Below are positions 16,517-31,845 of a stretch of DNA of 64,000 nucleotides, one piece after another. Source of the DNA: Anaerolineae bacterium (GTDB lineage Bacteria; Chloroflexota; Anaerolineae; Aggregatilineales; Phototrophicaceae); contig JAUZRW010000039.1 in assembly GCA_030950085.1 (NCBI GenBank), positions 1 through 64,000 on the forward strand. The letters are read 5' to 3'. The first letter of the stretch is position 1. Each line of letters starts with the position of its first letter. A program made the position numbers and the translations under genes. Under the pieces are notes generated by a model. That model did no database searches, was not told the origin of the DNA, and saw only the letters and a list, made by a program, of their open reading frames with translations.

Positions 16517-17656
16517 CTATGAAGGCAATTCCCACTCTCGAGCATCAAAGAGGCACCGTGAGTCAATTTGGTGCTTAAGTTCATCATAAATTGCTTGTAG
16601 CGTGGCGCGTCTCGATTGCAGATTGACACCTGCTTGTAGTAGCGAATAGATGCCGTAACCAAAGCCACCGACATTTACCAATAATCGAAGTATTTTCGCC
16701 AGTGGCTTGAAATAACGCCCGATGAAGTTTGCCAGTAAGTTGCCATCAATCAGTGTGCTGAATCCGAGTATGGCATGTCCTGTATGAGTCAATTGCTCGT
16801 TTTCAGTCTTTATAAGTGCCAATTTGACCTCTTGTAACAACGATTGCATCACAGCTTCTATATCTGGCTTACTTGGTTGACTTGATTGTTGTTGGGTATC
16901 AATCTCTGCTAACAAGCCATAATGGTCAGAATAGGCTTTGTCTGCACTGATAGGCTGATTCATCACTAGCTCAATACTGCGAATACTGGAATTTCGCAGC
17001 ATCACATAATCAAGGCATTGATTGAAGTCATGCGTATAGGGATTATCAGACGAATAGGTGATAGGGTATTTGTTATGATGGTGATAGTAAGAATCCGATA
17101 AATTGCCAAGTTGTAACAAGATACGATAGCCTAGTTGGTCAGGACGGGTATTCAAATCGCCGCACAAAACTGCTGGGTTATTGCCTGAGTTGGTATGAAT
17201 AAATCGCACAGCTTCATAGAGATTGGTATTCGTGTAAATGGCATCTTCATTGTCATTGTGTGCCTCATACTGGGCATGAGTATGGCAATTATAGACATCT
17301 ACTAAGCCATCAGGCATCTGAATTCGTACTAATCCAATTCCTTTGCCAGCATAATAATCGCCTTTGCGAAAGAGTTTCCCACTCATACGAAAACGATGAA
17401 ATGCCGCATCAACAATTGGATATTTTGATAGAGTCAACAATCCGCTACCGATGACACTTGATGTGAAATGGTGTGTGTAAGGATAGTCTGCTTTCAAGTG
17501 GTCAATCATTATTTTCGGCGTGCGTGGCAAATACACTTCCTGAAAGCACAAAACATCAGGCGCAACTTCGATAGATTTTTCTGCAATCTGGCGAAAACGT
17601 ACCGCACGGTGTTTGGCATATGGCACGCCCCAGATATTCAATGTGAGGATACGCAT
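16517..17656 (-). CDS. Endonuclease/exonuclease/phosphatase family protein, neutral sphingomyelinase-like
   Basis: 379 residues. The first 255 or so are an EEP-fold metal-dependent phosphodiesterase: LNIWG (Asn), CFQEV (catalytic Glu), CHTHAQ, GDLNTRP (Asp, Asn), and SDHYGL with the Asp-His pair near the end. GSGLLTLSKYPI and AGKGIG resemble neutral sphingomyelinases more than DNA-repair nucleases. The C-terminal 115 residues are helical with a weakly hydrophobic hairpin that could touch membrane. There is no signal peptide. The gene starts directly after the glgB stop with no gap. Substrate is inferred only. Confidence 0.8.
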   Translation of the reverse strand: MRILTLNIWGVPYAKHRAVRFRQIAEKSIEVAPDVLCFQEVYLPRTPKIMIDHLKADYPYTHHFTSSVIGSGLLTLSKYPIVDAAFHRFRMSGKLFRKGDYYAGKGIGLVRIQMPDGLVDVYNCHTHAQYEAHNDNEDAIYTNTNLYEAVRFIHTNSGNNPAVLCGDLNTRPDQLGYRILLQLGNLSDSYYHHHNKYPITYSSDNPYTHDFNQCLDYVMLRNSSIRSIELVMNQPISADKAYSDHYGLLAEIDTQQQSSQPSKPDIEAVMQSLLQEVKLALIKTENEQLTHTGHAILGFSTLIDGNLLANFIGRYFKPLAKILRLLVNVGGFGYGIYSLLQAGVNLQSRRATLQAIYDELKHQIDSRCLFDAREWELPS

Positions 17657-19876: not shown

Positions 19877-19923
19877 AAATATACCATCCAGTTTTGATGA
19901 TTATAACGATGGCTTGACTAATT

Positions 19924-20171
19924 TCCCACATCTGGCAATATGACAGAAATATTGATAATCTGATTGCTGAAATTAGTGCCATCATCAAGCAAATGGATTA
20001 GAACAAGCTACTGACTTACTCGATAACTTTTCCAAATATTGGGATAATTTAAGTGATGACCATAACGCGCAACAAGACCTGATTGAGTTGATTGTTTCAG
20101 GTGTGTGGGTAGAGAACCAAGAGGTTGCTCAAATATCTATTCATGACGGATATTATAAAAAAGTTAAATAG
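19924..20171 (+). pseudogene. Remnant of a large serine recombinase C-terminus
   Basis: A reading with DRNIDNLIAEISAIIKQ shifts frame near 19991 and continues as GLEQATDLLDNFSKYWDNL, then QQDLIELIVSGVWVENQEV, ending at TAG 20169. The motif pair (coiled-coil, then LLxNFxKYW and LIxxIVxxVWV) is characteristic of the C-terminal end of site-specific large serine recombinases. The catalytic and zinc domains are gone. It lies 53 bases from the 3' end of tRNA-Asp, which suggests the scar of an excised or decayed element. Confidence 0.6.
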
Positions 20172-20181
20172 AGAACAAAAA

Positions 20182-20205
20182 ACCCACTAATGTTGTGGGT
20201 CATTT
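20182..20205 (+). terminator. Weak hairpin after the recombinase remnant
   Basis: ACCCAC and GTGGGT with a seven-base loop, followed by a short T-containing stretch. Probably the old terminator of the recombinase gene. Confidence 0.35.
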
Positions 20206-20224
20206 GTCATTACCAACAAACGAT

Positions 20225-20297
20225 CGGGAGCGACGGGATTTGAACCCGCGATCTCCACCTTGACAGGGTGGCATGTTAGCCGCTACACCACGCCCCC
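20225..20297 (-). tRNA. tRNA-Asp (GTC)
   Basis: 73 bases, cloverleaf complete. The acceptor pairs GGGGGCG with CGCTCCC (one G-T pair), and discriminator G73 is correct for Asp. The anticodon arm CCACC-CTGTCAA-GGTGG gives GTC, and the T arm carries GGTTCAAATCC. CCA is not encoded. It is the only tRNA in the window. Confidence 0.95.
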
Positions 20298-20423
20298 ATT
20301 GAATGTTGACTAGATATTATCAGTTGTGTGGGGCGGTGTCAAGGGCGAAATCTTAAATTTGCTTGAGGTAAAGTTTAGTCCCTATTTGTGCCAAAGTGTG
20401 ATATTATGTTGTCGTTTTGCTTA

Positions 20424-20454
20424 ACGATACTAACTATCGTGTTCAATAATGAAC
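20424..20454. promoter_or_regulatory. Two adjacent palindromes upstream of the RND gene
   Basis: ACGATA-ctaac-TATCGT (20424-20440) is followed directly by GTTCA-ataa-TGAAC (20441-20454), 53 bases before the RND start. Both are perfect. This is a plausible operator pair for a dimeric repressor, but no regulator gene lies next to it. Confidence 0.4.
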
Positions 20455-20506
20455 AGCAAGTCTATTTTCTCGCTTATTTCTCGTTTAATTGAGGAGTGTC
20501 TTTACA

Positions 20507-23500
20507 ATGCGGTCTATCTTCGACTTTTTGACACGGACAGCGTTGCGCTTTCGTTATGTCACAATTGCAATTGTGTTTGTCGTCATGGCACTTGGGGTTC
20601 GTGCGGCGACTCAGTTGCAACAAGAACTACTACCCCCTGTGGAATTCCCACAAACTATCATTCTTGCACAAGTTTCTGGTATGACGAGTGAGCAAGTTTT
20701 GACTGTCATGACTGAACGGCTTGAAGAGGCTTTGCTAGAAGTCCCAGATGTGGTGAATGTTGAATCACAGACGACAGGGATATTCGGTGCAGTCATCGTA
20801 GCCAGCAACGAATTTGGTCTTGACCAAGGGCGGCTACAGGGTGAAATTCAAGCGGCTTTAGATACAGTTTATTTGCCATCGCGTGAAATTGCCCCAGCAG
20901 AGGGTGAAGCGCCGACAGAATTTGCGGCAACACTACTTGGCACTATGTCACCAGATGTCATGATTTATCTCATGGCAAACTATCCAACGTTTTCCTTTCA
21001 GCTTGCGCCTGATGTATGGGCTGAATTGCCGGATGAAACAGTGGAAGCAATGCTGGCTTATCTGGCAAGTCAAGTTGCAGCGTCTAATGATGCTAAAAGT
21101 GCCTTAGAGCAGTTGGTTGAGCAAGAAGTCTTACCGCAGATTGAAGCGGTTGACTTAGTGGCTAATGTTGTCATTGCGGGTGGGCAGGCTTTGCCGGGTG
21201 AAACATCGTCTGCTTTTGCAACTATCGAAACAGATGAAGAAGCCCAAAGTTTGTTGTTTCAATTATCGCCGGATGTGTGGGAAGTTGTTGCAGCACGTAT
21301 TGACGGTATCAGCGAATTGAACCAAGATGCTGTTGAGACTCTAAGCAATATTGAGGTAAGAGTACCAGAAATCACGCCTGTGTTGCCTGAAAGTTGGCAA
21401 TTTGACCACTTTCATAATGCAAGTGACCTAGAAGAAATGGCTTCGCTTACCCGCCCAATCGTTGTCGTTTTCAATGATTTTGTCACGACAGGAACGATTA
21501 AAGGGGCGTTGGGTCAAACAGACGATTTAACACCGGATGTCATTGAGCAAATGTTGGCGATTGACCCGACATTGGCGCAATACTTCGAGGCGGAACATCT
21601 TGTTGCCATGTCACAAGATGTATTTGATTCCTTACCAGAAGATTTGAATCTGGATGGCTTTACTCGTGATGATTTGGCTGCTGCGGCACTGGCACGTAGC
21701 CTAACAGGTTCATCGGTTACGCCTGACCCTGTTGATTTGCCCGCGCCATGGATGATTTCACCACCGCAGATTATCACATTTAGCCTTGCAGACCTTCCTC
21801 TGGCGACATTCAGCGTATTTAGTACAGCCGCACCAGATGAGACTGTTGATAGCTCAGATGAAAACACAACATCAGAAACAAGTAATGTAGCTGATGAATC
21901 GGCATCTGACATTGTAGAAACGCCAGAGGTGGTTGATTATCCCGAAGGACCTGAATTACCGCGCTTGTATGCTCTGCTAGGAGAACAATTTGGGGTTGAA
22001 TTGGATACGGCTGATGACTTGTTAGAAATCCGTTTATCGCCTGAAATTGCACAAGTATTGGGTGGTGATGATATTGTATTTATCGCTAACTTGCTTCCAC
22101 AAGCGGCACAATTAGCCGAGCAATTTCTTGGGACTGGTGATGAGGGTACTGATGCTCCTGAGTCGCCCTTTGGTGACATTGCTGCATTTGACCCAGCTTC
22201 TTTCGCACGATTTATGCCTGCTTTGGCACAATGTAACATTGATGTGAGTGGTTTGATTGGCGGCGGTGGTGAAGATGGCTTTGATATTGCGCCGATTACG
22301 AATGGTCTCATTAATTGTCTGGATAGCGAAGTCATCGCGTATTTGCTAGAAAATGACCCCTCAATTGCAATACGACTGAGTCCGGCTGTTTTGGATTTGA
22401 TGTCAGCAGACGCGCTTGCTGTTGATGGCATTTCTCCATTGCTGAGTAATGTATGGTCGGCTTTATCAGACCGCCCAGAATTCCAAACCATGGCGCTGCG
22501 GAGTGCTGATGATGTTCTCGCTTTAGGAGATGGTAGCGCCGCACAAGTGCTGGACACAATCAATAGGGAGGTTCCGTCGCGCTTTGAAGGGTACGAAGTA
22601 CGGCTCTTCGATAGCTTATCACCGACAATCTTAGCCTATTTTGCGGCTAATGAAGATGATTTCTATGCGAACCTTGATAGCGATGTGCTGCTGAAATTAG
22701 CCCCGACAACACTAGCAGCTATACCAGATGATGTTCTGGAAACTTTGCCAGAAGATGTTCGTGAACAAGCACTCGCTATAGTGAGTGGTGAGCAAGCATC
22801 AGCGATACAGGCTCTTGCAGACTTGTATACTAGCGAAGAAATACCTGAGCGCCCTGATGCGCCGATACTTAATGATGAGTGGGATGAAATCGCGCAGTTC
22901 ATGAGTGTTCAACTGAACAATGCTTATGATATGTTCCGCTTCCCCGAAGCAATGGGTACGCCATCAGAATTTATCAACGGGCTGTTTGACTCGCCCGGCG
23001 GCACGAACTTCGCGCCCGATTTGCTGGGTTATATGCCGCTGGATGCTTTCAACTATATTGCTGATGAAGACCCGAACTTCGTAAATGAACTTGAACCGCG
23101 TGCGCTTATTCTTCTTTCGGAAGAGATTTACCAACAATTGCCGCAGGCTATCCGTGACAAAGCGGAATCGGGCGAAGTGTTTATCCCAACAACACAAGTC
23201 ACTCGCTCGAACGGTGCGCCAAGTTTGTTGATTACAATCTTCAAGGAAGCTGATGCCAATACGGTTACGGTTTTCCACGATGTTGATGATGTTATCCGCG
23301 CTATCAGTGATGCGAATCCGAACATTGATGTAGAAGTTGCTTTTGAGCAATCAAGTTTCATCGAAGAATCTATCAGTAGTGTATTCCAATCCGGCATGTT
23401 GGGTGCTGTATTCGCTGTGGTGAATATTCTCATCTTCCTGAGTGGCGATATGTGGGGACGGCAAGGACGTTCGATAACAGGTATGGCAGTGATTGTCATT

Positions 23501-25534
23501 TCAGTGTTATTCCTAGTCATGCTATATTTCCTAAATGGCTCTTCGACAGAGCGAATTTTCAGTGAAGACCTGATTCTGGTGACAGTTCTCGGCATTTTCG
23601 GGCTGATTGCAGGCTTCGGTATTCTTGTTTGGCCGGGGCGCTTGCCTTTTCCATCATGGAGACCGACACTCGTGATTGCTGTTAGCATTCCGTTGTCGAT
23701 ACTCTCAGCTTTGGCGCTGATGCACTGGCTTCCTCCGGCTATGAATGCCGTGCTTGGTCAATATTCGGATAATGGATTTGTCGCATTTATCTTAAAGCTC
23801 GCGCCGGAAAGCCTCACGCTCAACATCATGACACTTTCCGGTTTGACGGTTGCTGTTGGGCGTTTGGTGGATGATTCAATCGTGGTGCTAGAAAATATCT
23901 TCCGCGAGTTGCAATCTGGCAAAGACAAACGAGAAGCTGTTCTCTACGCAACCCGTGATGTGTCTGTAGCAATTTTCAGTGCGACAAGTATTGCCGTGAT
24001 TGTCTTCTTGCCATTGGGTCTCACTGGGGGCTTGATTTCAGAATTTTTCCTCCCATTTGGTCTAGCTGTTACCTATACGCTCCTCTCTTCATTCCTGACA
24101 GCAATTACAGTTGTCCCCGTTTTGGCGTATATGTTCATTTCAAGTGAGCATGTCCCCTCAGATGAAGAAACATGGATGCAGCGTATCTATGTGCCTGTTT
24201 TGGAATGGGTTATCGGAACGGTTGGTCGTCGTGTCATTGTTTTGCTATTCGCAATTGCTTTGTTTTTTGCGAGTATCTGGTTATTGGGGCAACGTCCGGC
24301 GGCATTTTTGCCACAATTTGGCGAGGCACAATTGGTTATTTCTGTCTCGATGCCACAAGGTACAAGTTTAATTGAAACGAATGATAGAGTACTAGAGGTT
24401 GAATCGGCTATTCGGGAAGTCATTCCTGCTGAGGATTTGAATACTATTCGGACAATTGTTGGTGGCGGCGGTTTGGACTTTGAAGCGCTGTTAGGTGGTG
24501 GCGGAGTTTCCGAAAATCAAGCTGATGTTACGGTGACTATCAATTCATCTGAGCGACTAGATGAGTATACAAACACGATGCGCGAAGAAGCTAATGTTAT
24601 CTTTGGCGAAGAGAACGTCACTGTAGGGGCGGTCTCATTTGGAGATGGTGGCTTTGGTGGTTTTGAGTTAGTGCTTTCGGGTGCTGACCAAGATGTACTG
24701 GAGGATTTAAATGATGACATCATCGCCGCGCTTGAAAACTTCCCTGAATTATCGAATGTTTCAAGTAATTTAGCCGATGATGATGAGACGGGTCCCGCGA
24801 CCCTTATTCGCGTCAATGGAACATCCGCCTTAACTTTTGTGGGTGAATTGCAGACTGATGACACTATCAACTTCTTAAATCAGGCAATCGAAACTGTTCG
24901 CTCACAGGTCGATTTGCCAGAGGGGGTTGTAATTGGTCAAGGTTTTGACAGCGAATTGCAGACAGAAGGCTTCCAAAGCACGCTGATTGCTATTCCGATA
25001 GCGGGTATCTTTGTTGTTATCATCCTCATTCTTGTATTCCGTTCACCGATATACTGGCTGGTTGTAATGCTGAGTGTCTTGGTTGCACCCATTGGCGCGG
25101 CAATAGCCCTCACGATTACTGACCGCGTATTTGGCATTTCATCAATTATTGGTTTGTTGATGCTGCTTGGTTTGGTGGTCACGAATGCGATTGTGTTAAT
25201 TGACCGTGTGGGTTCTAATCGGACTGAACGAGGTATGAATCTTCACGATGCTGTTGTTGAAGCCGGTAGTCGTCGTATCCGTCCGATTCTGATGACAGCC
25301 CTAACGACGATTATCGGACTGATTCCGCTTTCGCTTGGTTTGGCAGAGGGGGCAATCATCGCCGCAGAGTTGGGAACGGTTGTGATTGGTGGTGTGATTA
25401 GTAGTACACTACTGACACTGATTGTCGTACCAGCCGCGTACTATCTGGCAACGCCTATCCATAGTTTATTGACACGCCCATTTGGTGGTGGGCGTTCAAA
25501 TGAAACACAATCATCACCTGAAAAAGAGAAGTAA
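20507..25534 (+). CDS. Giant RND-family efflux permease with large repeat-rich porter insertion
   Basis: 1675 residues; ordinary AcrB/HAE-type permeases have about 1030-1050. It begins like a normal RND protein (TM1, then a PN1-like porter segment to about residue 125). The frame returns to RND sequence at about residue 895 (TRSNGAPS, DQSSFIEES-like). TM4 carries the proton-relay pair in GRLVDDSIVVLENI. The roughly 770 residues between, against about 170 in relatives, hold many short repeats of the form x-P-D/E-V-hydrophobic (SPDVW, APDVW, TPDVI, SPEIA, SPTIL) and a Ser/Thr/acidic linker near 440-475. An extra hydrophobic pair lies after TM2 (about 985-1040). Start is the ATG at 20507 behind GAGGAG. 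No membrane-fusion or outer-membrane partner is present. Confidence 0.9.
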   Translation: MRSIFDFLTRTALRFRYVTIAIVFVVMALGVRAATQLQQELLPPVEFPQTIILAQVSGMTSEQVLTVMTERLEEALLEVPDVVNVESQTTGIFGAVIVASNEFGLDQGRLQGEIQAALDTVYLPSREIAPAEGEAPTEFAATLLGTMSPDVMIYLMANYPTFSFQLAPDVWAELPDETVEAMLAYLASQVAASNDAKSALEQLVEQEVLPQIEAVDLVANVVIAGGQALPGETSSAFATIETDEEAQSLLFQLSPDVWEVVAARIDGISELNQDAVETLSNIEVRVPEITPVLPESWQFDHFHNASDLEEMASLTRPIVVVFNDFVTTGTIKGALGQTDDLTPDVIEQMLAIDPTLAQYFEAEHLVAMSQDVFDSLPEDLNLDGFTRDDLAAAALARSLTGSSVTPDPVDLPAPWMISPPQIITFSLADLPLATFSVFSTAAPDETVDSSDENTTSETSNVADESASDIVETPEVVDYPEGPELPRLYALLGEQFGVELDTADDLLEIRLSPEIAQVLGGDDIVFIANLLPQAAQLAEQFLGTGDEGTDAPESPFGDIAAFDPASFARFMPALAQCNIDVSGLIGGGGEDGFDIAPITNGLINCLDSEVIAYLLENDPSIAIRLSPAVLDLMSADALAVDGISPLLSNVWSALSDRPEFQTMALRSADDVLALGDGSAAQVLDTINREVPSRFEGYEVRLFDSLSPTILAYFAANEDDFYANLDSDVLLKLAPTTLAAIPDDVLETLPEDVREQALAIVSGEQASAIQALADLYTSEEIPERPDAPILNDEWDEIAQFMSVQLNNAYDMFRFPEAMGTPSEFINGLFDSPGGTNFAPDLLGYMPLDAFNYIADEDPNFVNELEPRALILLSEEIYQQLPQAIRDKAESGEVFIPTTQVTRSNGAPSLLITIFKEADANTVTVFHDVDDVIRAISDANPNIDVEVAFEQSSFIEESISSVFQSGMLGAVFAVVNILIFLSGDMWGRQGRSITGMAVIVISVLFLVMLYFLNGSSTERIFSEDLILVTVLGIFGLIAGFGILVWPGRLPFPSWRPTLVIAVSIPLSILSALALMHWLPPAMNAVLGQYSDNGFVAFILKLAPESLTLNIMTLSGLTVAVGRLVDDSIVVLENIFRELQSGKDKREAVLYATRDVSVAIFSATSIAVIVFLPLGLTGGLISEFFLPFGLAVTYTLLSSFLTAITVVPVLAYMFISSEHVPSDEETWMQRIYVPVLEWVIGTVGRRVIVLLFAIALFFASIWLLGQRPAAFLPQFGEAQLVISVSMPQGTSLIETNDRVLEVESAIREVIPAEDLNTIRTIVGGGGLDFEALLGGGGVSENQADVTVTINSSERLDEYTNTMREEANVIFGEENVTVGAVSFGDGGFGGFELVLSGADQDVLEDLNDDIIAALENFPELSNVSSNLADDDETGPATLIRVNGTSALTFVGELQTDDTINFLNQAIETVRSQVDLPEGVVIGQGFDSELQTEGFQSTLIAIPIAGIFVVIILILVFRSPIYWLVVMLSVLVAPIGAAIALTITDRVFGISSIIGLLMLLGLVVTNAIVLIDRVGSNRTERGMNLHDAVVEAGSRRIRPILMTALTTIIGLIPLSLGLAEGAIIAAELGTVVIGGVISSTLLTLIVVPAAYYLATPIHSLLTRPFGGGRSNETQSSPEKEK

Positions 25535-25601: not shown

Positions 25602-26822
25602 CTAACGCAAGGGAATATGATTTTCTGTTGTGACTTTGAGGCGTGAATCTATGAGTTGTTCTGCGATAACTTTGAAACCTTCTATTGCACGGTCAAGATG
25701 TTGGCGAGTATGCGTCGCTGTATAACTGGTACGAAGTAAACTCCTGTTGGGTGGGGCTGCTGGGGGAATAACTGGATTTGTGTAAACGCCTTGCTCAATA
25801 AGGGCGTGCCACGTAAACACGGTCTGGTACTTTTCGCCAATGATAATGGGAATGATAGGTGTCTGGCTGTTGCCTGTATTGAAACCTAATGCTTTGAATT
25901 GTGTCCGCATATATTCGGCATTATGCCATAGTTTTTCGACATGCTCAGGTTCAGTTTCTATGATATCAAGAGCCGCAAGGACTGTTGTGGTATTGTGAGC
26001 TGGCAGGGCTGCTGAAAAGATAACAGAGCGAGCATGATGTTGGATATAGTGGATAACATCAGCACTTCCCGCAATAAATCCGCCAATTGAGGCAAAACTT
26101 TTACTAAATGTTCCCATGATAAGGTCAACATCATCCGCAAGCCCAAAATGTGCTGATGTACCATGCCCGTTGCCCATCACCCCGATGCCATGGGCATCAT
26201 CGACGAAAACACGAGCATTGTATTGTTTGCAGACGGTGACGATTTCCGGTAGCAGTGCGATATCGCCCATCATACTGTAAACACCATCCACAATGACCAG
26301 CTTACTCGCATTGTCAGGTAGTTTACTGAGAACACGCTCTAAGTCATTGATATCATTATGCTTAAATCGTTTGAGTTCTCCACGAGACATCAACACGCCG
26401 TCTACAAGGCTGGCATGGGCATCTTTATCGAGGATGGCATAATCGCCTTTGTCAACTAAGGCTGAGATAGTCCCTAAGTTGGTTTGATAGCCAGTTGAAA
26501 AAACCAATACAGCTTCTTGACCGACATATTTTGCTAGGCGACGTTCTAGTTCGAGGTGCAATTCAAGTGTTCCATTGAGAAAGCGTGACCCTGTGACACT
26601 GGTGCCGTATTGTTGTAGTGCATCTGCGGCGGCTTGCCGAACTCGTGCATCGGTGGTGAGACCCAGATAGTTATTCGAGCCGAGCATAACGACTTCTCGA
26701 CCTTCAAAGATAGCAGTCACACCTTCTGAATTACTTAAAGCACGGAAATAGGGGTAAATGCCCATTTCCATAGCTTCTTTTGCTATGGTGAATGATTTAA
26801 TTTTGTCGAAAATATCTGCCAC
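25602..26822 (-). CDS. Alpha-oxoamine synthase, serine palmitoyltransferase-like
   Basis: 406 residues from a GTG at 26822 that follows a GAGAGAG purine run; the frame is open to 26876. It is a PLP enzyme of the KBL/AONS/SPT family that condenses an amino acid with an acyl-CoA. GSNNYLGL, TGSRFLNGT, FVDDAHGIGV and TFSKSFASIGGF (Schiff-base Lys) are present. The run HHARSVIFSAALP is closer to bacterial serine palmitoyltransferases than to glycine acetyltransferase, and no tdh or bio genes are nearby. KBL or BioF function cannot be excluded. Confidence 0.85.
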   Translation of the reverse strand: MADIFDKIKSFTIAKEAMEMGIYPYFRALSNSEGVTAIFEGREVVMLGSNNYLGLTTDARVRQAAADALQQYGTSVTGSRFLNGTLELHLELERRLAKYVGQEAVLVFSTGYQTNLGTISALVDKGDYAILDKDAHASLVDGVLMSRGELKRFKHNDINDLERVLSKLPDNASKLVIVDGVYSMMGDIALLPEIVTVCKQYNARVFVDDAHGIGVMGNGHGTSAHFGLADDVDLIMGTFSKSFASIGGFIAGSADVIHYIQHHARSVIFSAALPAHNTTTVLAALDIIETEPEHVEKLWHNAEYMRTQFKALGFNTGNSQTPIIPIIIGEKYQTVFTWHALIEQGVYTNPVIPPAAPPNRSLLRTSYTATHTRQHLDRAIEGFKVIAEQLIDSRLKVTTENHIPLR

Positions 26823-27007
26823 AAGCACTCTCTCTCTAAAACCCACTATTTTCACAATGTATGCTGAAAATGACAAGGCTGGGTTTTGGTGATAGGTGTT
26901 TATCGCTAAAGGTGCGATTCTTATGCGTTGTGTTATGGTGTAACAGTTATTGAAAACTTTCTCAACGCAGGACTACAAATTGAATAGCTAATTGTGAAAA
27001 TATTTAC

Positions 27008-27037
27008 TTGCGTGTTTATCGCTATATACGCTACAAT
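27008..27037 (+). promoter_or_regulatory. Candidate promoter TTGCGT-N18-TACAAT
   Basis: TTGCGT at 27008-27013 and TACAAT at 27032-27037 with an 18-base spacer, 43 bases before the start of the small membrane protein gene. Confidence 0.4.
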
Positions 27038-27079
27038 ATGGTCTTATGTTGCATAATGAGTTCAGAGAGTGGATTTTCT

Positions 27080-27328
27080 ATGTCTGGTTTAACATTAAAA
27101 CGTTTGCTGGTAATTATCATTTCTCAAGTTTTAGGTGTTTTAGCTGGCTGGTTTATTATTACTGTTGGTTTCAACAACCTACGGTTTATTACGCCGATTG
27201 AAACACCACAGGGACGGTCAATTGGAGAATATGGCATCCAGTATTTTTTATGGACAGCCGTACCATTAGGTTTTATCTTCATGATTTGGCTAGATAAATT
27301 CTATGATACCCATATCCTGCCTGATTAA
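27080..27328 (+). CDS. Small two-helix membrane protein
   Basis: 82 residues from the ATG at 27080, which has a GAGAGTGGA site; the frame is open from 27008. There are two hydrophobic segments (about residues 8-28 and 50-68) joined by a polar loop containing PIETPQGRSIGEYG. I do not recognise the family. It is flanked by a promoter-like sequence and a terminator, so it is probably a single-gene transcript. Confidence 0.65.
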   Translation: MSGLTLKRLLVIIISQVLGVLAGWFIITVGFNNLRFITPIETPQGRSIGEYGIQYFLWTAVPLGFIFMIWLDKFYDTHILPD

Positions 27329-27356
27329 TGGATTATCCCCCATGATTTGATTGAAG

Positions 27357-27383
27357 AAGCCTGCATAACTTGTGGGCTTTTTT
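27357..27383. terminator. Intrinsic terminator
   Basis: AAGCC and GGGCTT with a flanking CA/TG pair and a six-T run, between the convergent small membrane protein and deacetylase genes. Confidence 0.6.
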
Positions 27384-28192
27384 CATCTCTCGTAGTTGAG
27401 CAGGTATTGAAGCCCTGATACGCCTGTTTCATTGGTGATACGCATTCGTGACAAAAGCAGGCGATTATCAGTGGTGTGATAAGCGCCTATCTCGGTTGTT
27501 ACAGCGCGTAGAATACGGGTTGTGCTTAGGACATTGAGTGCATTGTCATCATACCTGCCTATCGGATAAGCCAAAATGCGTGGTTCAACCCCTGTATAGT
27601 ATGCAATACTTTCGGCACTTCCCAAAATTTCGTAAATAAGAAAATCATAGTTACGCTCACGCAAGTCAGCGTGGGTTTTTGTATGCGATTCGATACTCAT
27701 GCCGGCATTTGCCATCTCTGTAATTTGTTCCCATGACATATATCTGGGACGATTATTATCTGCAAATTCACTGACAACGAAAAAAGTTCCAGTAAAACCA
27801 TATTCTTGGAGTATTGGAAAAACGGTTGCGTAGTGGTCAATGTAGCCATCGTCAAAGGTTAAAACAACAGGATTAGAGGGTAGCGGTGTGCCGTTTTCTA
27901 ATGCAAGGTCGATTTCGTATAGTGAGATAGTGTTATAGCCCTGTGATTGAAGATATTGGATATGAGCGCGAAATCTTTGCGGCGAAACGGTCAGTCTGGT
28001 GCGAATATCATCTGCATTTGGGGGTAATTCACTGACGTAATGGTACATCAGAATCGGAACATGTATGCGGCGCAATGTGCCATCGCCTGTTGTGTCAGGG
28101 AGTTGTTGGTGATTATGCGCTGTTGGGGTATTTATAAAGATAGTGAGTATGATGTGTAAGAGGATAATTTTAGTCAGATTATTTTTGTTCAT
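27383..28192 (-). CDS. Secreted polysaccharide deacetylase (CE4/NodB)
   Basis: 269 residues with an N-terminal signal or anchor (about 5-25). The CE4 motifs are intact: VVLTFDDGY (catalytic Asp and metal Asp) and SHTKTHADL (metal His pair). It probably removes N- or O-acetyl groups from peptidoglycan or an envelope glycan. It is monocistronic, and the upstream region is divergent from the HMGR operon. Confidence 0.87.
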   Translation of the reverse strand: MNKNNLTKIILLHIILTIFINTPTAHNHQQLPDTTGDGTLRRIHVPILMYHYVSELPPNADDIRTRLTVSPQRFRAHIQYLQSQGYNTISLYEIDLALENGTPLPSNPVVLTFDDGYIDHYATVFPILQEYGFTGTFFVVSEFADNNRPRYMSWEQITEMANAGMSIESHTKTHADLRERNYDFLIYEILGSAESIAYYTGVEPRILAYPIGRYDDNALNVLSTTRILRAVTTEIGAYHTTDNRLLLSRMRITNETGVSGLQYLLNYER

Positions 28193-28322
28193 ATAATTAT
28201 TATGGGGTTCTATCTCGATATGTCAAGATGTTTCGCATAGTCATTAGATGAACAACATTAGATAGTTCTCATTTTCACAATATGATAGATTTTGACAGAT
28301 ACATCATGCTAAATTCAGATCC

Positions 28323-29618
28323 ATGAAAACAAAAACATCACGAATCACAGGATTCTACAAAAACACCTTAGACCAACGTATACACACCATTTCACAATGG
28401 GCAAATCTATCTAATACCGAGACTAACGTTCTTAGAAACATCCTCAGTTTATCTACTGAAGATGCTAGTCACATGGTTGAAAATGCAATTGGAACTTTCA
28501 GCTTACCTCTCGGTATCGGTACAAATTTTCTCATCAATAACACAGATTACCTCATACCAATGGCTATCGAAGAGCCTTCCGTTATAGCCGCAGTCAGCAA
28601 TGCAGCTAGATTATTTCGTGAAGGAGGTGGATTCACCACTCACAGCGACGAACCTATTATGATAGGACAAATCCAACTTCTTGATATCAACGATCCAGAG
28701 CAAGCTGTTCAAATCATCTGTGAACATAAGCATCAACTTATTGAGGAAGCCAATAGAGTCAGTGGCAGCATCGTCGCTAGAGGTGGTGGTGCTATAGATA
28801 TTGAAACACGAATTTTCACCGACACGCCTATTGGAAGCATGGTTATCATCCATCTACTCTATGATACTCGTGAAGCTATGGGAGCAAATGCTATCAATAC
28901 AGCCGTAGAACACCTTGCTCCCTTTATTGAAGAAATCACAGGTGGACGAGTCAATTTACGAATCCTAAGTAATTTGACCGACAAGCGTAAAGCCTACGCA
29001 GAGGGAATGATACCAGCCCAGATCCTTGCTCGTAATAATGTTTCTGGTAAGCAAGTCGTTCGTTCCATTGTAGAAGCTGGTATTTTCGCAGAGATTGACC
29101 CCTATCGTGCCACCACTCACAACAAAGGCATCATGAACGGCATAGATGCAGTTCTCATCGCTACAGGCAATGATTGGAGAGCCGTTGAAGCAGGTGTCCA
29201 TGCCTATGCTGCGCGTAGTGGCACTTATAGCAGTTTAAGCAAATGGTGGCAAGATGATGATGGCAATCTACGCGGCTCGATTGAACTTCCACTTGCAGTA
29301 GGCACTGTTGGAGGCGCAACACGAGTTCATCCGACTGCAAAAGTTGTCATGAAAATACTAGGTAATCCATCCTCACGCGAACTCGCCGAGATTATTGCTA
29401 CTGTTGGTCTCGCACAAAATCTTGGCGCACTACGCGCACTCGCAACAGAAGGTATTCAGCACGGACACATGCGAATGCACGCTCGGCAACTCGCTGTTGC
29501 CGCAGGTGCAAGTAACGAACAAGTAAGCCAAGTTGCCCACCTATTAGTTGAAGAAAATAAGATTCGCCTACAACGGGCAAAAGAAATCGTTGCAGAATTA
29601 CAGGATAAAAATCAATGA
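28323..29618 (+). CDS. mvaA: HMG-CoA reductase, class II
   Basis: 431 residues. It reduces HMG-CoA to mevalonate (or the reverse). Class II features: [12 protein letters not shown], and catalytic Glu83 in AIEEPSV, Lys268 in HNKGIMNG, Asp284 in [10 protein letters not shown] and His382 in GHMRMH, each within a residue of the Pseudomonas mevalonii numbering. GTVGGAT is also intact. Although class II enzymes were first known as degradative, the operon with HMG-CoA synthase points to biosynthesis here. The stop overlaps the next start by four bases (ATGA). Cofactor choice (NADH or NADPH) cannot be read. Confidence 0.94.
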
Positions 29619-30679
29619 CTACGAACTCATGGCTCATGCAACCTGACACATCTGTCGGGATAGTCGGATATGGCGCATACATTCCGCGTTATCGTTTAGC
29701 AGGACATGATATTGCTAGAGTCTGGACAAATGGACTCGGTACGTCACCTATTAAGGAAAAAGCAGTCGCTGGACTTGATGAAGATGTCATTACAATGTCA
29801 ATTGAAGCGGCGCGAAATGCACTAAAACGCGCACAGATTAACCCACAACATCTACGGGCTGTTTGGGTCGGTAGCGAGAGCCATCCTTATGCTGTCAAAC
29901 CCACTAGCACCATTGTCGCAGAAAGCATCGGTGCTGCCCCGAATATTCAAGCGGCTGATTGGGAATTTGCTTGCAAAGCTGGTACAGAGGCAATTCAAGC
30001 CTCAATTGGCTTAGTCGGAAGTGGCATGGGACAGTACGCGCTCAGTATTGGAATGGACACGGCACAGAGTCGTCCGAGCGATGCTTTGGAATATACAGCA
30101 GCTTCTGGTGGAGCAGCATTCATACTAGGTTCTGCGGATGAGGCGGTTGCTATTTATCAGGGAAGCTACAGTTTTGTGACCGACACTCCCGATTTTTGGC
30201 GACGTGCTGAACAAACATATCCTAGTCACGGCGACAGATTCACAGGCGAGCCTGCATATTTCAATCACACCTTATCGGCAGCAACACAGTTAATGGAAAT
30301 GATGGCTACGAAAGCGAGTGATTATACTCATGCTGTATTTCATCAGCCGAATGTCAAATTCCCAAGCCGTGCAGCGAAAATGTTAGGCTTTTCTCAAGAA
30401 CAAATCGCAACAGGCTTACTCGCTAACAATATCGGAAACGTATATTCCGGTTCATGTATGTTAGGTTTGACGGCAATATTGGATATCGCAAAGGCAGGAG
30501 ACCGTATTCTGATGATTAGTTATGGTAGTGGGGCAGGTTCCGATGCCTTCGATTTGCTAGTAACAGACAACATCGAATCGAAACGGCATTTAGCACCAAC
30601 AACACAAGATTACATTCAGCGTCGGACAAAAATTGATTATGCCACCTATACTCGCTATCGTGGAAAACTGAAAGCATGA
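29615..30679 (+). CDS. HMG-CoA synthase, archaeal type
   Basis: 354 residues, the compact archaeal length. It condenses acetyl-CoA with acetoacetyl-CoA. The catalytic triad is intact: Glu88 (VGSESHPY), Cys120 (FACKAGTEA) and His243 (FHQPNVKF). Translational coupling to mvaA by an ATGA overlap and to the thiolase-like gene by an 11-base gap indicates one operon. In archaea this enzyme forms a complex with thiolase and DUF35 and channels acetoacetyl-CoA; the same order is seen here. Confidence 0.93.
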
Positions 30680-30690
30680 GGTAAATGATA

Positions 30691-31845
30691 ATGACACAAA
30701 CAGCAATTGTTGGTATTGGCATGACTCCTGTAAGTGAGCATTGGGGTTTAAGCTTACGAGAATTAGCCGCCGAAGCCGCACAAAAGGCGCTTGAAGATGC
30801 TGGCTTAAATACAGTTGATGCAATTTATGTGGCAAATGCCTATGGCAGCACATTCAATGGGCAAACACATTTGGGAGCATTGATAGCAGACTATATCGGG
30901 CTAGATGGCATTGAGGCATATACTGTTGAAGCCGGAGATGCTTCGGGCGGAGCTGCTCTACGAACGGCACATATGGCTGTTTTATCTGGTCTTGTGAATA
31001 CAGCACTGGTTATCGGTGTAGAAAAAGCAACTGATATTGTAGGTGCTAGTCGTACAAAGGCACGAACGATAAGCCTTGATGCGGATTATGAGGTTATTCA
31101 CGGCGCTACCTTGCCTTCAATGGCTGCCTTGCTTATGCGTCGATATATGTATGAATATGGTTTAGAGCTTTCTGACTTTGAGGGGTTTAGTATTAATGCC
31201 CATGCCAATGGCAAACGAAATCAATATGCGATGTATCGCAATACGATTCGTGATGGAGCATTTGCACACGCGCCGATGGTTGCTGCGCCCGTCAATCTAT
31301 TCGATAGTGCGCCAGATGGCGATGGTGCGGCGACGATTGTTATTACTCGTCAAGATGTTGCCCAAGATTTAGTGCCGCAACCCATTACGATTGCTGCGAG
31401 TAGTGTCACAACTGATGCTTTTATGATTCAAGAACGTAAAGATATGTTGCATTTGACAGCCGTGCAATCTTCGGTACAGACAGCATTACAACAGGCGCAT
31501 CTGTCGCACCAAGAAATTGATTTGTTTGAACTTCACGATGGATTCACTATTTTAGCAGCATTATCCCTTGAAGCTGCTGGTTTTGCTAAACGCGGTGATG
31601 GTTGGAAGTTGGCAACAAACACGGGAATTGGTCTTGAAGGTGTTATTCCAATTAGTACTTTCGGCGGACTCAAGAGTCGAGGTAATCCCGCAGGAGCAAC
31701 GGGTGTTTATCAGGCTGTAGAAGCTACTTTGCAATTACGCGGTGATGCAGGTGAAAATCAAGTTAATAATGCAAAAATTGCCATGATTCAAAATATGGGC
31801 GGTCTTAGTAGTACAGTCGCGACACATATCTTGTGTATCGGATAG
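30691..31845 (+). CDS. Thiolase-like protein lacking catalytic Cys and His
   Basis: 384 residues from the ATG at 30691, which has GAGG nine bases upstream; an ATG at 30685 is too close to it. The fold matches archaeal/SCP2-type acetyl-CoA acetyltransferases along the whole length (SLRELAAEAAQKAL, GVEKATDI, LPSMAALLMRRYM, GGLKSRGNPAGATG). The nucleophile segment, normally VEAACASGG, reads VEAGDASGG, giving Asp83 for Cys. The GHPxGATG His is Asn332 (RGNPAGATG). The HDGF His282 is kept. Claisen chemistry by the usual mechanism should be impossible. Its place between HMG-CoA synthase and DUF35 suggests a structural or CoA-binding role in their complex. Confidence 0.9.
   Translation: MTQTAIVGIGMTPVSEHWGLSLRELAAEAAQKALEDAGLNTVDAIYVANAYGSTFNGQTHLGALIADYIGLDGIEAYTVEAGDASGGAALRTAHMAVLSGLVNTALVIGVEKATDIVGASRTKARTISLDADYEVIHGATLPSMAALLMRRYMYEYGLELSDFEGFSINAHANGKRNQYAMYRNTIRDGAFAHAPMVAAPVNLFDSAPDGDGAATIVITRQDVAQDLVPQPITIAASSVTTDAFMIQERKDMLHLTAVQSSVQTALQQAHLSHQEIDLFELHDGFTILAALSLEAAGFAKRGDGWKLATNTGIGLEGVIPISTFGGLKSRGNPAGATGVYQAVEATLQLRGDAGENQVNNAKIAMIQNMGGLSSTVATHILCIG

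Follow-up and report, generated by a model that had tools for sequence, protein, structure and literature searches.

RND pumps are best known as Gram-negative tripartite machines, while the adaptor-free RND exporters of Gram-positives, such as SwrC/YerP, are about 1000 aa long. The window analysed here, a 64,000-nt stretch of an Anaerolineae genome (contig JAUZRW010000039.1, assembly GCA_030950085.1), encodes an RND permease of 1675 aa and raises the question of what the extra residues in its first porter region are, and what they may do in a pump with no partner genes nearby. A first-pass annotation had proposed that they replace the periplasmic adaptor or bind a polymer. The permease, below called P0001, belongs to a family, f1, of Aggregatilineales/Anaerolineae MAGs. 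Its features, with residue numbers in brackets, are the following.

20507..25534, + strand: RND (ACR_tran) permease gene, 1675 aa, ATG start, GAGGAG-type ribosome site upstream
20615..20887, + strand: porter subdomain PN1, intact by PF00873 alignment (37-127)
20888..21094, + strand: Block A, a partial repeat unit (128-196; unit match 128-194, E 1e-7)
21095..21205, + strand: PN2 helix-strand segment, displaced upstream of its partner strand (197-233; E 2.5e-10)
21206..21760, + strand: Block B, repeat unit(s) (234-418; unit match 265-386, E 3e-24)
21761..21829, + strand: PN2 strand, elsewhere directly before the helix segment (419-441; E 3.4e-5)
21830..21940, + strand: acidic Ser/Thr linker, not conserved (442-478)
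21941..23182, + strand: Block C, tandem units replacing the docking subdomain DN, from full-unit model matches (479-892)
23183..23371, + strand: PN2b, intact by PF00873 alignment (893-955)
23447..23653, + strand: family-specific insertion between TM2 and TM3 with two extra predicted TM helices (990-1008, 1023-1041)
23870..23875, + strand: proton-relay Asp pair, D1122 and D1123, aligned to AcrB 407 and 408
24779..24784, + strand: junction of the deletion of docking subdomain DC (~90 aa), where PF00873 jumps from 712 to 798 across residues 1425-1426
25181..25183, + strand: Thr (1559) at the position of AcrB relay Lys940, by AcrB alignment

The open reading frame, its ATG start and its length are those that had been reported. 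P0001 scores 384 bits against ACR_tran (PF00873; Pfam gathering cut-off 28), which places it in the RND superfamily, and it is the only protein of its genome above that cut-off. Its best NCBIfam equivalog or subfamily match, RND_permease_2, reaches 274.9 bits against a cut-off of 1250, and with 34.8 bits for MMPL vs. 384 for ACR_tran and an insert in loop 1 it is no MmpL (HAE-2) protein. PF00873 matches P0001 in separated pieces (residues 10-118, 897-979, 1102-1425 and 1426-1647, corresponding to model positions 3-110, 270-353, 380-712 and 798-1019), so that residues 128-892, with about 780 residues between the model pieces, stand for about 160 family positions, much as had been estimated. The Asp pair is intact and invariant, and the Arg and Thr of TM11 align with AcrB 971 and 978, the further residues of the proton relay. 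Proton-driven export is the expected activity of this core.

The place and size of the insert in the first porter region were thus read correctly, yet it is not a single block, since the PN2 pieces (197-233 and 419-441) lie within it. Block C contains unit matches at 452-531, 592-639, 639-751 (E 4e-31) and 760-890 (E 1e-30). The acidic Ser/Thr linker that had been said to split the insert exists (12 acidic and no basic residues, 30% Ser/Thr) but is not a conserved element, being 17% identical among f1 genera. With 139 Asp/Glu vs. 23 Lys/Arg the array of P0001 is strongly acidic; that of L045 is nearly neutral.

The insert had been described as a dozen or more copies of a short x-P-D/E-V-hydrophobic motif. 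We counted 12 P-[DE]-hydrophobic motifs in residues 130-895 vs. 5.2 in shuffled sequences (P = 0.003), and five strict P[DE]V motifs vs. 0.7 (P = 0.0005). A better description is a 40-aa core inside a unit of 105-130 aa. The core model finds five copies in P0001 (E 6e-9 to 4e-13) and the full-unit model matches it six times (E 7e-4 to 4e-31), E-values that are flattering for P0001 itself, as the models were trained on its units and those of its relatives. For the same reason the matches in secreted proteins (E 3e-20 to 2e-26) are the fairer test. Chance repetition of a short motif is ruled out by the shuffle test together with the core and full-unit profile matches. In short form the unit reads W...ELxTADD...LxPEVL...LP, and its consensus is P.lp..W......g...LdTADDll......s...LN...........Ltpe.l.yl...ep.F...Ls.evl..Ls.evl..LP..v. 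It keeps an invariant W and D, is Pro-rich with short predicted helices (hydrophobic-moment analysis supports the helices weakly) and varies in copy number between proteins, up to 8. The fold is probably alpha-helical. Among f1 genera the insert is 45-53% identical, compared with 48% for the PC porter region and 17% for the Ser/Thr linker, and conservation of this order is unlike that expected of a disordered segment.

We also asked whether the unit is a known domain, which the searches exclude. No Pfam or NCBIfam family was matched by more than one of 25 units, and those matches were always weak; among PDB sequences 9zem ('HeliScrew4') alone was significant (E 4.7e-9 over four stretches). Its short-helix repeats, 11 residues long and LTPEQIAAL-like, are similar to the second half of the unit, but 9zem is without the W...TADD half, and the relation, seen in sequence only, is possibly convergent. 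The unit occurs in two types of protein, RND pumps and secreted toroid proteins, and appears to be an unclassified and undescribed extracytoplasmic module.

What the first-pass annotation missed is that, by alignment and profile search, both docking subdomains of AcrB are gone from P0001, DN being replaced and DC deleted. DN and DC models made from ordinary Chloroflexota RNDs recognise those proteins as well as AcrB (E 4.6e-5 and 1.6e-8), whereas in P0001 they give E 2.9 and 4.0 at unrelated positions; over P0001, L045, L085 and L088 they give E above 0.5 or no match. By AcrB alignment DC measures 94 residues in E. coli AcrB and 94-96 in the ordinary RNDs of the class, and 4-13 residues are left in proteins of f1, f3, f7, f8, f40 and f42. 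Two sister lineages, the families f83 (L188-L190) and f44 (L091, L092), still have both docking subdomains, with weak-to-clear units inserted in DN, so that they look like intermediates in a graded series. LysM, a binder of peptidoglycan-type glycans, scores above the Pfam cut-off inside DN of L196 (residues 314-362) and L091 (residues 450-492), the latter with two units beside it; these pumps resemble P0001 in carrying extra modules within DN but differ in retaining DN and DC and having few or no units. Various Gly/Pro-rich linkers likewise lie within DN of relatives. As LysM occupies the same insertion site in related pumps, the proposal that the insert binds a polymer gains indirect support.

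The array is also accompanied by a rearrangement of the porter. In unit-bearing proteins outside f1 in which both pieces were detected, the PN2 strand (xxNFSLSDLPVVxxSxS) comes first and the helix-strand segment follows within 0-6 residues. In f1 the order is reversed, with the helix-strand segment of P0001 about 190 residues ahead of the strand; the other f1 proteins tested show the same order, some of them with a weak match to the strand. Duplication of a unit-strand-helix segment, after which one strand and one helix disappeared, would give rise to this arrangement. All f1 members of alignment A1 further carry, between TM2 and TM3, a stretch of 69-76 residues that other families are without. 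This insertion holds two strongly hydrophobic segments and is poorly conserved (32%).

A survey of other Chloroflexota RNDs, as had been suggested, found the array in orthologues of f1, f3, f6, f7, f8, f40, f42 and f44. In a tree of core columns, from which the later-found f83 proteins are absent, the unit-bearing proteins fall together in a single clade (SH-aLRT 99), and every family with more than one row makes up one group; inheritance across Anaerolineae is vertical. P0001 belongs to this clade by its first-loop units, its loss of DC and its position in the core tree. Insert-free homologues in the same lineage together with a fusion artefact had been named as grounds for doubt; instead, many orthologues carry the insert, and an assembly or gene fusion is ruled out by the architecture common to many MAGs and by the single, vertically inherited clade. 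One record titled Pleurocapsa minor, a cyanobacterium (L145), carries a pump that groups inside a Chloroflexota family, for which reason this public MAG is probably mislabelled or contaminated.

No adaptor adjoins the P0001 gene, in agreement with the first-pass annotation. At 70 unit-bearing loci with flanks, some of them the same genome twice, no adaptor-like ORF lay within 5 kb in 69, as judged with a model of limited sensitivity made from few sequences, one of which (L095, 470 aa) is probably no adaptor. The exceptional genome (L035 = L147) has an adaptor-like ORF at a distance of over 2.5 kb and on the opposite strand. The OEP/TolC family was missing in 22 of 23 sampled genomes and Omp85 in all 23, and both were found in diderm controls; by its gene content the host cell is monoderm, without an outer membrane. 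In f46 and f50, ordinary RNDs that possess DN and DC are accompanied by an adjacent adaptor lipoprotein and have the relay Lys; this Lys is present in the adaptor-associated class members L093-L095. At the same position Thr or Ser is found in unit-bearing and in simple adaptor-free Chloroflexota RNDs, and Ala in one. L191-L198, of other classes, have intact docking domains yet no adjacent adaptor, which suggests that adaptor loss probably came first. The idea that the insert takes the place of the adaptor therefore holds in part: it stands at the docking region of a pump with no adaptor gene in a cell with no outer membrane, but such a replacement is not needed, as L191-L198 illustrate. Replacement of the adaptor as the direct cause of the insert is weakened by these docking-domain-bearing Chloroflexota RNDs without a linked adaptor.

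Outside the pumps, the unit was found in f8, where a single copy forms the extreme C-terminus of secreted alpha-toroid proteins (SQHop/prenyltransferase/squalene-cyclase-like).

L103, 7345-8793: secreted toroid protein with one terminal unit
L101, 5599-6816: secreted toroid protein with one terminal unit
L100, L102, L104 and L105: secreted toroid proteins with one terminal unit

These genes lie just upstream of genes for a substrate-binding protein, a permease and an ATPase, in apparent operons. As annotated by eye, the three neighbours resemble FecCD/Hmu-type ABC importers, and the toroid proteins with their importers may serve to scavenge cobalamin or heme. Inspection by eye shows a type I signal but no lipobox in P0002 and P0003, and the secreted toroid proteins have no C-terminal TM. 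Surface-retention modules often sit at the extreme C-terminus of secreted proteins.

Compared with HAE-1 pumps (AcrB/MexB/MdtB), P0001 has the TM core, PN1, PN2, PC1, PC2, the Asp pair and the equivalents of Arg971 and Thr978 in common. It differs in its replaced DN, deleted DC, 14 instead of 12 predicted TMs, Thr for Lys940, reversed order of PN2 elements and lack of adaptor or OMF, and so is without the marks of a tripartite HAE-1 pump, namely DN/DC, the relay Lys940 and a linked MFP adaptor with OMF. Closer in setting is ApeX of Bacillus, whose missing docking domain has been attributed to the absence of an outer membrane in its host (PMC5596346); such Gram-positive adaptor-free RNDs share the monoderm host and the missing docking domain with P0001, and no repeat array is described there. 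Mycobacterial MmpL4/MmpL5 (HAE-2) are, like P0001, RNDs with a long inserted extracytoplasmic domain that replaces adaptor partners (PMC12501195), although their insert is a coiled coil in the second periplasmic domain and they have an MmpS partner, whereas the units of P0001 lie in loop 1 of a core of the ACR_tran type.

How the array works can be approached from these observations. The reading we favour, to which we give slightly less than an even chance, is an adaptor-free monoderm RND exporter whose docking funnel has been replaced by a wall-embedded or wall-binding crown. With the adaptor and outer-membrane partners lost, the membrane-distal docking subdomains would have had no further use; a module that is now repeated, and is probably alpha-helical, would have entered DN and multiplied, and DN and DC would have been lost afterwards. 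By analogy with AcrB the pump is likely to be a trimer, which would carry three module arrays atop the porter, and the most likely role of these would be to hold the pump within a cell-wall layer, or attach it to one, and thereby position its exit. Its substrates would be hydrophobic or amphiphilic compounds. The reading is favoured by the missing DN and DC, the graded f83/f44 series, the lack of adaptor, OMF and Omp85, vertical inheritance within one clade, and an insert conserved like PC; by LysM, which shares the DN insertion site, and by a unit that ends secreted proteins without lipobox or C-terminal TM. MarR-like regulators upstream of the pump in f42 favour a role in efflux. Since the unit has no characterised relative, wall binding is argued from association, and the strongly acidic array of P0001 does not favour a charge-driven attachment to anionic wall polymers. 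That the unit occurs in two protein types counts against a crown, as this is few for a general wall anchor.

The main rival, which we regard as unlikely, has the three arrays form a chimney that conveys substrate across the wall, so that the pump would have its adaptor substitute built in. A precedent is MmpL5, an adaptor-free RND trimer that needs its 196-aa insert, modelled as a tube in the periplasm, for efflux (PMC12501195); in P0001 it is PN2 that carries the insert, at the top end of the porter exit, and unit copy number differs between lineages. A tube of this kind fits poorly with Pro-rich units of short predicted helices in place of a long coiled coil, with an array interrupted by PN2 elements and an unconserved linker, and with secreted single-unit proteins, which have no conduit role. 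These last proteins would be accounted for if units bound each other or a common partner and recruited secreted proteins to the pump. Such docking would explain one unit type common to pump and toroid proteins, and the likeness of its short-helix half to the repeat protein 9zem is in keeping with it. Nevertheless, we consider it improbable: the f8 genus g31 has the secreted protein with no unit-bearing RND seen, and the window's genome has the unit in the pump only, so that the two types need not meet.

Gene neighbourhoods brought up a third possibility, a lipid or isoprenoid exporter whose array handles a lipid or polymer. In about 28 of 35 f1 genomes, counted from coordinates, the pump gene converges on a serine-palmitoyltransferase-like gene (515 bits for NF047600, under the cut-off of 640), beyond which come genes for polysaccharide deacetylase, HMG-CoA reductase and HMG-CoA synthase.

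25602-31845 of the window: family-conserved run of the serine-palmitoyltransferase-like gene with HMG-CoA reductase, HMG-CoA synthase and thiolase (mevalonate route)

The palmitoyltransferase-like gene occurs in 46 of the 47 good f1 genomes, whether they have the pump or not, which makes it weak evidence for a lipid substrate; it lies on the opposite strand, and the link is unseen in other families (f42 has the MarR-like gene), leaving lipid export quite improbable. Least probable of all, and in our judgement highly so, is a neutral ratchet, in which an unconstrained docking region merely tolerates growing repeats. Docking subdomains are indeed dispensable without partners, and DN of relatives also takes up Gly/Pro-rich linkers and LysM, but units that are 45-53% identical between genera with W and D invariant behave quite unlike the true linker with its 17%.

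Some further neighbours of the pump genes were recorded. A mevalonate-kinase-like ORF, identified by eye, lies next to the f83 pump of L188. The gap upstream of P0001 (window 19877-20506) holds a tRNA-Asp (20224-20298, minus strand) and the tail of an apparent site-specific recombinase ORF, likely a mobile-element remnant, and window 16517-17656 encodes an endonuclease/exonuclease/phosphatase-family protein with weak, below-cut-off similarity to sphingomyelin phosphodiesterase.

Taken together as a single account, a monoderm RND may have become a self-contained envelope-crossing machine, in which a module colonised the docking site, displaced DN and DC and came to serve as wall conduit or anchor, with a rearranged PN2 and, in one family, a TM hairpin; as a whole we hold this account to be rather doubtful. 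The unit-bearing clade nonetheless presents a stepwise natural record, from docking domains with an insert to loss of both docking subdomains, and shows an RND pump refitted for a cell without an outer membrane. The array of the P0001 type is an independent counterpart of the MmpL5 insert, and the work names an apparently unclassified extracytoplasmic module as well as a rearrangement within a porter subdomain.
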